Below, in pieces: positions 2,385-5,307 of a DNA stretch of 5,307 nucleotides. A model generated the notes under the pieces. The model made no database searches. It was not told the DNA's origin and worked only from the letters and a program-made list of their open reading frames with translations. The position numbers and the translations under genes are program-made. Position 1 is the stretch's first letter; every line of letters starts with the position of its first letter. The stretch comes from an uncultured Bacillota bacterium (GTDB taxonomy: Bacteria; Bacillota; Clostridia; Christensenellales; UBA1242), in NCBI GenBank assembly GCA_900555365.1, contig USKO01000050.1, positions 1-5,307 of the forward strand, read 5' to 3'.

Positions 2385-3108
2385 GGCATGCCTCTCTTTG
2401 TCTAAGCACTTCAAAGATAGTTATTGCGCAGGCTACAGATGCATTAAGTGAATTGACTTTACCTTTTAAAGGAAGAGCCAGTGTGCCGTCACAGTATTTG
2501 ATCAATGAAGGCTTTATTCCAAACCCTTCTGAGCCTATGATAAGTCCGATAGGGCAGTCAAGCTTTTTATCATATATATTTTCGCCGTTTGCATCAGTAG
2601 CAAATATAAATACATCTTTTTCTTTTAAGTAAGTGATTGCTTCCTTTAAATTGGTGACTTTACAAACCAGCATATTCGATATGGCGCCGGCGCTGGTTTT
2701 AAAGACAGTTTCATTAATTTGTGCACAGCGATTCTTTGTTATAATAATTCCATGCACGCCAGCACATTCGCAGCTTCTTATAATAGCGCCTAAATTATGA
2801 GGATCTTCTATTTCATCAAGTAGAACTATAAAAGGTTTTTCATTTTTAATATACGCGCGCTCTAATATATCATCTAACTCGCAGTAGACAAAGTCAACAC
2901 TTTCAGCGATAAACCCTTGATGATGGGAGGTCTTTGATTTTTTATCTAAAATATTTTTAGGCAAAAACTCAATTTTGATTTTATTTGCACGCGCTAAATC
3001 AACAATTTTATCTCTTCGATTTTTTAATGACTGATCGACTAGAAGTTTATTTATAGTTTTGCCCGCTTGTAAAGCCTCTAGCACAGCATTTTTTCCTTCA
3101 ATCAACAT
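2377..3108 (-). CDS. rlmB: 23S rRNA (guanosine-2'-O-)-methyltransferase, TrmH/SpoU family
   Basis: A 243-residue SPOUT-class methyltransferase that uses S-adenosylmethionine to methylate a ribose 2'-OH. The family representative RlmB acts on G2251 (E. coli numbering) in the 23S rRNA peptidyl-transferase region. The N-terminal substrate-binding domain starts with IEGKNAVLEAL (3-13) and runs to about residue 75. All three SPOUT knot motifs are intact: motif 1 LLDEIEDPHNLGAIIRSCE (96-114), with the conserved N105 and R111; motif 2 IIGSEGFGI (190-198); motif 3 ALPLKGKVNSLNASVA (211-226). Length and architecture match RlmB and Bacillus YacO. The start ATG is preceded by AAAGGG. The gene has its own promoter in the 76-nt gap after mrnC and its end overlaps sigH by 8 nt. 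The stop is TGA with a second in-frame TGA directly after it, showing that TGA is not read as tryptophan here. The exact target nucleotide is inferred from the family. Confidence 0.93.
   Translation of the reverse strand: MLIEGKNAVLEALQAGKTINKLLVDQSLKNRRDKIVDLARANKIKIEFLPKNILDKKSKTSHHQGFIAESVDFVYCELDDILERAYIKNEKPFIVLLDEIEDPHNLGAIIRSCECAGVHGIIITKNRCAQINETVFKTSAGAISNMLVCKVTNLKEAITYLKEKDVFIFATDANGENIYDKKLDCPIGLIIGSEGFGIKPSLIKYCDGTLALPLKGKVNSLNASVACAITIFEVLRQREACHD
2391..2397 (-). promoter_or_regulatory. Ribosome binding site of sigH
   Basis: AGAGAGG on the minus strand, 6 nt before the sigH ATG at 2384, lies inside the last codons of rlmB. It decides the start in favour of 2384 over the TTG ten codons upstream and points to coupled translation of the two genes. 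Confidence 0.75.
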
Positions 3109-3184: not shown

Positions 3185-3595
3185 CTATATTTTAGCGGCT
3201 AAATCTAAAGAGAGATTTAAAATTTCATCAAATCGCTCTTGCTCACCTTTTAAGTATAGATATCCAATTAAAATTTCAAAAGCAGTAGCATAGCTATAAT
3301 CACTAGAGCTTGCATTTTTAGCATGATGTTTTGGTTTTGCATTGCGTCCACGCCTAACGATGTCTATTTCGTCATCACTAAGCAGGGGAATTAACTTTTT
3401 TAGCACATTTGCCTGAGTATTTGCTTTGCAAAAATAAGCGGCGCTATTGTGATAGCTTCCCATTTTATCATTGATTTTCTCAATTACTTTCTCTCTTACA
3501 AAGAGAGTATGCACGCCGTCACCAATAAAAGCTAGCGGAAGAAGATTTGTTTTAACTAAATTCTCTAAAAGTTTTTTATTTTCTTTAATAATCAT
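3185..3595 (-). CDS. mrnC: Mini-ribonuclease III (MrnC), 23S rRNA maturation
   Basis: A 136-residue protein made of a ribonuclease III catalytic domain without the double-stranded-RNA-binding domain, which is the definition of Mini-III. In Bacillus it acts as a dimer and trims the 23S rRNA precursor with the help of ribosomal protein L3. The RNase III signature LAFIGDGVHTLFVRE (residues 21-35) carries the metal-binding D26; further blocks are YHNSAAYFCKANTQANVL (48-65), RRGRNAKPKHHAKN (81-94) and YSYATAFEILIGYLYL (100-115), with catalytic E107. Length is typical. The ATG at 3595 is preceded by AAGAAGG with a short 4-nt spacer. The stop is TAG. It is the first gene of the minus-strand cluster, next to rlmB, which also acts on 23S rRNA; this pairing is conserved across Firmicutes. 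The usual upstream partner cysS is absent; a divergent intergenic region and an AAA+ ATPase gene lie there instead. Confidence 0.93.
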   Translation of the reverse strand: MIIKENKKLLENLVKTNLLPLAFIGDGVHTLFVREKVIEKINDKMGSYHNSAAYFCKANTQANVLKKLIPLLSDDEIDIVRRGRNAKPKHHAKNASSSDYSYATAFEILIGYLYLKGEQERFDEILNLSLDLAAKI

Positions 3596-3611
3596 ATAAC
3601 CTTCTTTAAAA

Positions 3612-3641
3612 TATCAATTAAATAATGTCAAAAATTGTCAA
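3612..3641 (-). promoter_or_regulatory. Possible promoter of mrnC
   Basis: On the minus strand a perfect TTGACA (complement of 3636-3641) is followed after 18 bp by TTGATA (complement of 3612-3617), a poor -10 match. A second TTGACA (complement of 3626-3631) lies 10 bp closer to the gene, but its -10 would fall on the mrnC ribosome binding site, so the distal copy is the better candidate. The start point would give a very short leader, like that of rlmB. The call rests mainly on the -35 match and on the absence of a better promoter upstream of mrnC. Confidence 0.35.
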
Positions 3642-3645
3642 AATA
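3626..3645. repeat. Tandem 10-bp direct repeat TGTCAAAA-AT
   Basis: Two adjacent near-identical 10-mers, TGTCAAAAAT and TGTCAAAATA, are spaced exactly one helical turn apart. Each contains a TTGACA on the minus strand, and the second overlaps a TTGTCA on the plus strand. The repeat sits between the mrnC start and the GC-rich island, where divergent transcription would begin. It may be a protein-binding site or simply duplicated -35 sequence; no regulator is recognised. Confidence 0.4.
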
Positions 3646-3661
3646 AATTAATTTATATTAT
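3635..3661 (+). promoter_or_regulatory. Possible promoter of the intergenic structured RNA
   Basis: TTGTCA (3635-3640) and TATTAT (3656-3661) each match the sigma-A consensus at five of six positions, but the 15-bp spacer is shorter than the usual 17. Transcription would begin near 3667-3668, which coincides with the start of the first GC-rich stem (AGCC at 3666-3669). That agreement is suggestive only; the short spacer and AT-rich background keep confidence low. Confidence 0.3.
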
Positions 3662-3665
3662 CGGA

Positions 3666-3791
3666 AGCCGAACTTGCTTGCAAGAGTGAGGCTGATGGTT
3701 ATACAAATTATGTGAAGAGTGCGTGAAACGCACAAATTCGTAAGAATTTATTAAAATTTTATGATAGTAAAATTTTAACATCACATAGTTT
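3666..3791 (+). ncRNA. Unrecognised structured RNA candidate (four-arm fold)
   Basis: The first domain pairs AGCC (3666-3669) with GGCT (3690-3693) around a CTTG/CAAG hairpin (3673-3676 with 3681-3684). The second, 3705-3791, is closed by an 11-bp stem (3705-3715 with 3781-3791, one T-G wobble) and holds three adjacent hairpins: GTGCGT/ACGCAC (3719-3733), AAATTC-GTAA-GAATTT (3734-3749) and an 11-bp AT-only stem with loop TGATAG (3751-3778). Junction linkers are only 0-3 nt. G/C content is 36 of 80 at 3661-3740 against about 12 percent just upstream and 10 percent just downstream. The wobble pair would become an A-C mismatch on the minus strand, and GTAA is a GNRA tetraloop only on the plus strand, so the plus strand is favoured. 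I do not recognise tRNA, tmRNA, SRP RNA, RNase P RNA, 6S RNA, T-box or any riboswitch signature. No strong terminator follows. Alternatives are a leader of mrnC on the other strand or a DNA element that extrudes a cruciform. Boundaries are approximate. Confidence 0.4.
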
Positions 3792-3892
3792 ATATTAAAC
3801 AAAATTTTAATAAAACACTTTAATTTAAAATATTTTTATAACTATATTAGCATAGAAATACAATAAAAATTTCATTTTTTTAAAATTCAATA
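3792..3892. other. Very AT-rich spacer before the ATPase promoter
   Basis: About 100 bases at roughly 10-15 percent G/C with no open frame of note. It contains a third copy of AAAATTTTA (3801-3809; the others are at 3753-3761 and 3769-3777). A weak AT-only hairpin (3804-3810 with 3825-3831) followed by ATTTTT is too poor to call a terminator. The A and T tracts just upstream of the -35 box at 3893 resemble an UP element and could strengthen the downstream promoter. Confidence 0.4.
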
Positions 3893-3921
3893 TTGACTTA
3901 TGCATATTAATAAACTATAAT
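3893..3921 (+). promoter_or_regulatory. Sigma-A promoter of the AAA+ ATPase gene
   Basis: TTGACT (3893-3898, five of six) and a perfect TATAAT (3916-3921) are separated by the optimal 17 bp. Transcription would start near 3928, giving a leader of about 29 nt that ends in the ribosome binding site. The promoter lies downstream of the structured intergenic element, so that element need not be part of this message. Confidence 0.8.
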
Positions 3922-3943
3922 CTTAATAACAATTTTATCTCGC

Positions 3944-3952
3944 AGGGAGGGG
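3944..3952 (+). promoter_or_regulatory. Strong ribosome binding site of the AAA+ ATPase gene
   Basis: AGGGAGGGG lies 4 nt before the ATG at 3957; its AGGGAGG core is 6 nt before it. It fixes the start codon and, with the near-consensus promoter, suggests high expression. Confidence 0.8.
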
Positions 3953-3956
3953 ACAA

Positions 3957-5307
3957 ATGTACTTTGGACAAATTTTAAAAGATATAGCAATTCAATATGC
4001 TTTTGTAAAGAATCCGGGATTATATATCGATCATCTATATTATCAAGATTCTTTAGAAAATCTTGATTTAAGTGAATATGATGAGGAGGATGTTTATCAG
4101 CAGGACGGATTTCCTACTCCAAGCGAAGCGCAAGTAGAATTTAAAAATACGCAAATTTATCAAGCTTTAAAATTTGACAAAAAAGATAGTCATGAGGTTG
4201 CAGCGTTAAAACAAAAATATACAGAAGCTTATATTGAAATTTTAAATGCCATGGGTCTTGCCATTCAAGCAAGAATTATTAAAGGCATTGAAGATAAATT
4301 TACTGTTGGAAAAGCTGAAGATGTTGATGATGCTGTATTTGATTACTTAGAATCATGGAGTTATGCTGACGACCTAAATGGAATTATTTCTAGTCCAGAG
4401 CATCCTATAGATCATTTATCTTTTTATATTGCAAGCAGAAAATTAGATGAAAAGGGACTGGAAGAGCTGAAAAATTTACGAGACTTTTATCTTGAAACAG
4501 TTGATCATATTCAAGATTCTTTAACCGATCTTAAGGGCATTGATTTTATGTCAGAAAAAGGCTTTAATTATGAGAAAGTTAAAGAATGGATTATACCTTT
4601 CTATGCTGTGCCGAATGAGATTGCCAAAGGGCATGGTAAAGTTGATATTAGTGATGTTGTAGACGAAGACGAAGATACTGTAAATCGCACTAAGCTTAGC
4701 GACGAAGAATACAAAAAAATGACAGATTTTGGCAAAAAGGGCAAGCTTGCTGCAGGCAAAAATCAACGCAAGATTATGTCGGTTGAAGAGGCGCTAAAGA
4801 AAAATTTTGCTGATCTTGTTGGGCTTAAAGATGTCCAAAGTGCAATACTTAGAAAAACCAAATTAATAAAGAAACTTCCAAACAAGATTGTTGACTGCAA
4901 TTTCAGATTGACTGGCAACCCTGGGGTGGGTAAAACAACAGTTGCAGAGGCTATGAGCAAAACTTTCTATGATGCGGGAATAATTAAAAATCCTGAGTTT
5001 ATACAGCTAAATGGTGCTGGCTTAAAGGGTAAATATGTTGGTCACACTGTTCCAAAAGTTCAAGAGATGTTCGAAAAGGCTAAAGGCGGCACTCTATTCC
5101 TTGACGAAGTTTACAGCTTGATTTCTGAAGGCGGTGGAGATGATGGCGACTCCTTTGCTCAAGAAGCAATCACTGAACTTATGATTCAAGTAGAAAAGCT
5201 GTATAATGAGCAAAAGACCAACCCAGACGCAAAGACTTTAATCATCCTTGCAGGATATCAAGATAAGGTCAACACTCTTCTTGATAAAAATATCGGTTTC
5301 AAACGAA
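3957..5307 (+). CDS. CbxX/CfqX (SpoVK/EccA-like) AAA+ ATPase, 3' end beyond window
   Basis: The frame is open from the ATG to the window edge, giving 450 residues of an incomplete protein. The AAA+ module begins near residue 280 with FADLVGLKDVQ (284-294). It carries Walker A GNPGVGKT (320-327), the family block GAGLKGKYVGHTVPKVQEMFEKAKGG (353-378), Walker B TLFLDEVYSL (379-388) and the sensor-1 segment TLIILAGYQD (427-436). The visible end, NIGFKR, aligns with the NPGLxSRF arginine-finger motif of the family, and the next codon begins with A, compatible with arginine. These features place it in the CbxX/CfqX group, which includes Rubisco activase CbbX, SpoVK and the type VII secretion ATPase EccA. 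Such proteins form hexameric remodelling machines; the substrate here is unknown. Residues 1-280 are predicted mostly helical, rich in Asp/Glu and Tyr (for example 232-240, SDVVDEDED), with no signal peptide, membrane segment or recognised domain. A basic stretch at 259-272 leads into the ATPase. It is transcribed divergently from mrnC, from its own promoter. Confidence 0.88.
   Translation, partial: MYFGQILKDIAIQYAFVKNPGLYIDHLYYQDSLENLDLSEYDEEDVYQQDGFPTPSEAQVEFKNTQIYQALKFDKKDSHEVAALKQKYTEAYIEILNAMGLAIQARIIKGIEDKFTVGKAEDVDDAVFDYLESWSYADDLNGIISSPEHPIDHLSFYIASRKLDEKGLEELKNLRDFYLETVDHIQDSLTDLKGIDFMSEKGFNYEKVKEWIIPFYAVPNEIAKGHGKVDISDVVDEDEDTVNRTKLSDEEYKKMTDFGKKGKLAAGKNQRKIMSVEEALKKNFADLVGLKDVQSAILRKTKLIKKLPNKIVDCNFRLTGNPGVGKTTVAEAMSKTFYDAGIIKNPEFIQLNGAGLKGKYVGHTVPKVQEMFEKAKGGTLFLDEVYSLISEGGGDDGDSFAQEAITELMIQVEKLYNEQKTNPDAKTLIILAGYQDKVNTLLDKNIGFKR

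Follow-up and report, generated by a model that had tools for sequence, protein, structure and literature searches.

Palindrome-associated transposable elements (PATEs) of the IS200/IS605 family are short, gene-less elements with folded ends that may be moved in trans; as described in the parts of the source consulted, they have no terminal inverted repeats, produce no target duplication and insert at a short sequence (PMC7290912), and guide sequences stand 5′ of the IS200/IS605 hairpins (PMC7290912, PMC8266576, both in part). REP sequences and BIMEs are palindromes of 20–50 nt placed behind a GTAG, and in the REP and REPIN model systems it is the single strand that is recognised, according to the consulted portions of PMC8266576. 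In the BOX repeats of streptococci, boxA and boxC flank inner boxB modules that repeat in tandem (PMC3049150, likewise in part).

We analysed a 5,307-nt stretch of DNA (the window) from an uncultured Bacillota bacterium. Our preferred reading, held with some reserve, is that positions 3661–3797 belong to a family of dispersed 137-nt repeats that form tandem arrays and are likely non-autonomous mobile elements, dependent on an enzyme supplied in trans (Table 1); no description of this unit was found in the portion of the literature surveyed. The window copy is matched at 3652–3797, with 158 bits, by a covariance model (R1) built from 16 copies. Aligned with their flanks, copies are alike from TTTATATTATCGGAAG to CATCACATAGTTTATATTA and diverge beyond both limits, and among solo ends (49 left, 51 right) the core is conserved, with conservation fading outward. 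Direct reading finds TTTATATTA at 3652–3660 and again at 3789–3797, a direct repeat absent from the repeat-finder output; no inverted repeat links the two termini of the window copy. The same 9-mer occurs 78 times in 778 kb of pieces of one relative, G220. The initial annotation had described a 45% G+C island ending at 3791. That figure belongs to the first 80 nt (3661–3740), since 3661–3791 as a whole has 33% G+C, against approximately 12.5% in the flanks, and the unit extends to 3797. ARAGORN found no tRNA or tmRNA. Rfam returned three matches in the window (E 3.9–4.9), none overlapping the island, and none at E up to 1 at six loci with copies; the earlier statement that no common RNA family fits thus agrees with the absence of matches at the thresholds used, and a known Rfam RNA was rejected because no family matches the unit.

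Table 1. Parts of the repeat unit in the window, with the basis for each.
Feature	Positions	Strand	Basis
137-nt unit, as differing between filled and empty sites; one 9-mer copy included	3661..3797	+	aligned copies with flanks, model match, net site differences
Left core TTTATATTA, likely target-derived	3652..3660	+	sequence, 49 solo left ends, empty sites
Arm 1, stem-loop with two GA/GA internal loops (3664-3665/3694-3695; 3670-3671/3688-3689)	3656..3703	+	fold; covariation
Linker, able to pair with right core; putative guide	3701..3707	+	inverted repeat 3701-3715/3781-3795, 87% complementary
Closing stem of domain 2, 5′ strand	3705..3715	+	fold
Hairpin A	3719..3733	+	fold; 6/6 pairs changed on both sides
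Hairpin B, loop GTAA 3740-3743, loop not conserved	3734..3749	+	fold; loop variable
Hairpin C, A/T-rich 12-bp stem	3751..3778	+	fold
Closing stem of domain 2, 3′ strand	3781..3791	+	fold
Right core TTTATATTA, common to next unit in tandem arrays	3789..3797	+	sequence, 51 solo right ends, three-unit array

The two-domain fold of the unit is real and has the support of compensatory changes. The plus strand of 3640–3800 folds as RNA at −41.5 kcal/mol, where shuffled sequences average −22.8 (z −5.8, equalled by 0 of 200 shuffles), and this fold recovers the four arms already proposed from the sequence, that is, a stem-loop followed by an 11-bp closing stem (3705–3715 with 3781–3791) that encloses three hairpins. 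Compensatory change, which had been suggested as a check, bears this out. In the alignment of the 16 copies, pairing holds in 89.1% of 777 cells, compared with 37–45% when partners are slid, 18 of 50 pairs have changed on both sides, among them arm 1 pairs 17–18/53–54 and 21/50, and the covariation score is 0.233 versus 0.046–0.091 with slid partners, the tested structure being taken from the window's own fold, which biases the comparison in its favour. Additional standard pair types show no excess over shuffles (367 of 500 were as high). The GTAA tetraloop noted earlier is present but cannot be called a conserved one, because the loop of hairpin B differs between copies. The plus strand had also been singled out. 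The minus strand folds well too (−33.9, z −5.3). In 47 distinct rows (from the 53 best of 75 matches, fitted to the model after removal of 22 that were weaker or on the opposite strand) plus-strand G-U cells outnumber A-C cells by 177 to 47, so that one strand is favoured. It is moderately so when conserved wobble pairs are set aside, pairs dominated by Watson-Crick types alone giving 59 G-U and 31 A-C cells. The G-U pair of the first stem is retained in 44 of the 47 rows.

The repeat is widespread among relatives. Of 309 genomes in the nearest family, 85 have R1 matches, 27 of these 85 with at least nine scored matches, and relative G214, searched by itself, yielded 17. A DNA search of 197 family genomes recovered close full-length copies, several in each genome and some head to tail; at the loose limit of E 1 the same search finds some match in 195 of the 197, a figure that is meaningless alone. 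Just 19 of 45 copies have their nearest copy in the same genome. The window copy is closest to one in G067 (93.8% in the alignment used for that count; 96% over 144 bp as the best DNA match), on a contig that may be mis-binned, given that its flanks match G001 at 95–99%. Among 297 genomes drawn from the order, seven have R1 matches, of which five are family members. Units in the other two, which lie outside the family, G445 (L298, L303 and L307, in tandem) and G504 (L299 and L304), retain the cores at their ends and the arrangement in two domains, but their helices differ. Phages and plasmids returned short matches alone, covering at most 24% of the query, and among viral contigs a single right end matched exactly, in an unrelated contig lacking the unit, and no left end matched. 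The orientation of the unit relative to flanking genes is mixed (8, 8, 7 and 7 at the 30 of 40 loci where genes were called on either side), and relative to the local gene strand it is the same in 10 cases and opposite in 8, one array being counted twice; there is no such bias, and hence no hint of a lagging-strand preference.

Tandem units are spaced at 137–138 bp (136–149 bp across variants) and have one 9-mer in common, as in a three-unit array (G220:C14) where neighbouring units share their 9-mers. Unit number differs at the same site between genomes, one in G001 versus two in G067, and one in G054 versus two in G241. Copies are also mosaic: short and long forms of arm 1 are each found with both type A and type B of domain 2, the four combinations accounting for 40, 14, 9 and 6 of 74 copies, and five copies have no arm 1 class. 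One locus (L134, 3017–3608) holds four model-matched units of differing variants, with a degenerate fifth in front by eye. At another (L064), the junction of two units at 1548–1694 gives a weak opposite-strand model match (E 3.9e-7), as happens at other arrays, and the sequence beside the array (2401–3035) recurs at 70–99% identity in many genomes of the genus.

Further evidence comes from the close relatives G214 and G220, large parts of which were compared. At four sites one of the two carries a unit that the other lacks, with net size differences at sites 1–4 of 137, 137, 138 and 137 bp; we read these as differences, either gain or loss being possible at each. The empty sites read TAAATATTA, GTGATAATTA, TTTTATATTT and TATATATTA, and all four contain a TATATT-like core, within which the position of the cut is ambiguous. 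Left and right cores are unlike each other at sites 2, 3 and 4. At site 3 the outer sides of both junctions match the target, as does the outer side of the left junction at site 2. Site 2 also requires the loss of one base, and at sites 1 and 4 single core letters agree with neither the empty site nor the end that units usually have. These departures may stem from later mutation or from the mechanism itself. Three of 15 G220 array entries yielded clean empty sites in G214, and two of 17 G214 entries, at the same place, yielded one in G220 (overlapping pieces being listed twice); the remaining entries had no usable match in the other genome. One degenerate copy is common to both genomes (L151/L235), and two further pairs (L064/L104 and L134/L152) were left out because they differ by more than a unit. 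The initial annotation had taken the island for a stand-alone structured RNA of its intergenic region. It is instead a dispersed, tandem-forming repeat, whose clean present and absent sites point to the mobile-element identity that the annotation had itself named as telling against such an RNA.

Candidate mobilisers were sought in the same genomes. Of the 85 unit-bearing genomes 20 have Y1 genes, as do 31 of the 224 others (p 0.058); reverse transcriptases are found in 25 of 85 and 48 of 224 (p 0.18), and the IS110 transposase (PF02371) in 0 of 85 and 2 of 224; none of these genes clearly tracks the unit. Screening of 39 Y1 loci found the unit nearby at two and recognised no Y1 element sharing its ends, two loose right-end matches aside (L211 and L225), and a Y1 gene beside one copy (L092) has, by eye, hairpin ends of its own. 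No longer, gene-carrying version with the ends of the unit was recognised among 92 left-end matches, six of which had the hairpin, though with no right end in reach. The 296 reading frames beside copies provided no convincing recurrent candidate; one frame that looks by eye like an integrase lies near three loci.

The unit probably moves as a folded single strand, through the action of an enzyme. Such an enzyme would recognise the folded strand, cut at the TATATT core on either side and join the unit to a similar core elsewhere, a step modelled on IS200/IS605 enzymes that act on single-stranded DNA. Since the last nine letters of the unit are also its apparent target, another unit can insert directly after the first; insertions of this kind would build arrays, in which recombination by crossing over would later reshuffle units and shorten the row. 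The linker between the domains may act as a guide by pairing with the cores, and its pairing with the right core, within the inverted repeat 3701–3715/3781–3795, resembles the guide sequences 5′ of IS200/IS605 hairpins, in so far as the consulted parts of the sources describe them.

A DNA substrate is not favoured by arm 1, which is predicted better by RNA than by DNA rules. Over the 16 copies its mean pair probability is 0.75 (inner) and 0.42 (outer) under RNA rules, compared with 0.39 and 0.13 under DNA rules, the other helices being about equal under both, and under DNA rules the window copy loses arm 1. Together with the excess of G-U over A-C cells, this is what could be expected were RNA the active form, either a structured RNA guiding its own insertion or one from which new DNA copies are made, as with SINEs. 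We regard this as rather unlikely: the unit contains no terminator-like site and no convincing promoter, IS110-type transposases occur in two of the 309 genomes, neither with the unit, and reverse transcriptases are distributed as given above. The energy rules are also weak evidence for an RNA form, because G-T and G-A pairs form in DNA too. An unlikely variant is a gene-less mobile RNA, in which the two-domain RNA would direct its own placement, the linker pairing with the 9-nt core at both ends, and a new class of enzyme would act on it.

Alternatively, the unit might be a small repeat that spreads and shrinks through replication slippage and homologous recombination between 9-mers, with no dedicated enzyme. 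Tandem arrays, the polymorphism of one versus two units and the mosaic modules would all be expected, and these processes could cause the changes in array size. As an account of the whole unit, however, we consider it highly unlikely, for slippage does not suffice to explain either single copies at loci that are unrelated or steps of exactly one unit where just ~9 nt of core is shared.

The window locus itself does not explain the unit. Among the window proteins, glnS and rlmB exceed the NCBIfam cut-offs, a SigH-like factor falls below, and the protein labelled mrnC by the initial annotation has no match. The AAA+ protein (3957–5306), all of whose NCBIfam matches are below cut-off, has a SpoVK/CbbX-like ATPase part after some 270 residues without a family match. 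Homologues of mrnC adjoin rlmB at 30 loci of the family, the upstream regions suggested earlier as the place to find related RNAs, and the unit is absent from all 30 (32 loci, L001–L032, scanned at E up to 0.1), and a syntenic RNA at mrnC was rejected on this ground. Of the 30 loci, 16 have upstream of mrnC a relative of a 351-aa frame of L002, which we take to be the GTPase YchF; relatives thus keep another frame at this position, and the window has a rearrangement breakpoint in the intergenic region of the unit (3185–3957). The single genome relative found by protein, a Clostridia MAG (L001; AAA+ 64%, RlmB 72%), has the closest AAA+ locus, in which no unit was found upstream of the AAA+ gene. 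Thus, although the unit folds strongly and sits between mrnC and the AAA+ gene, it can hardly be a structured leader or small RNA for either, being missing from those relatives, preceding a promoter-like site for the AAA+ gene (3893–3921; such sites are about as numerous as in shuffles) and adjoining varied genes elsewhere.

If our preferred reading of a mobile element is correct, a compact unit with a well-supported fold, exact junctions and no visible mobiliser is spread through a large bacterial family with genomes of 0.5–2 Mb, where arrays and empty sites offer a way to find the mobiliser. It is also a warning that, in an AT-rich genome, even a G/C island that folds well and shows real covariation can turn out to be a mobile repeat rather than the RNA gene of a locus.

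Several known systems were compared with the unit, against the consulted parts of the sources cited above. A classical MITE is ruled out, terminal inverted repeats and target duplication both being missing, and an IS110-type RNA-guided element is not supported, PF02371 having been found in no unit-bearing genome. BOX repeats are likewise modular, dispersed and folded when read as RNA, with variants in their internal modules (PMC3049150), whereas here whole units repeat with a terminal core in common. REP/BIME sequences, and REPINs with TnpA-REP, are also folded intergenic repeats present several times per genome with tandem copies, but the unit is 137 nt long, comprises two domains and has no GTAG before its hairpins, which excludes membership, and most unit-bearing genomes lack Y1 genes. 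PATEs differ in that the unit is one compact two-domain fold with the same 9-nt core at both ends, where a PATE target has 4–5 nt, no orientation bias is seen, and no resident IS200/IS605 element with the ends of the unit was found (39 Y1 loci, two loose matches). PATE insertion occurs 3′ of a fixed tetra- or pentanucleotide; the unit has its TATATT-like core at the four empty sites, with an ambiguous cut. As in PATEs, terminal inverted repeats are lacking (in the window copy), there is no target duplication beyond the recognised sequence (four sites, net 137–138 bp), and a hairpin stands at each end, arm 1 on the left and domain 2 on the right, with covariation. Although membership fails on resident matching ends, it is with the PATEs that the unit is best compared.
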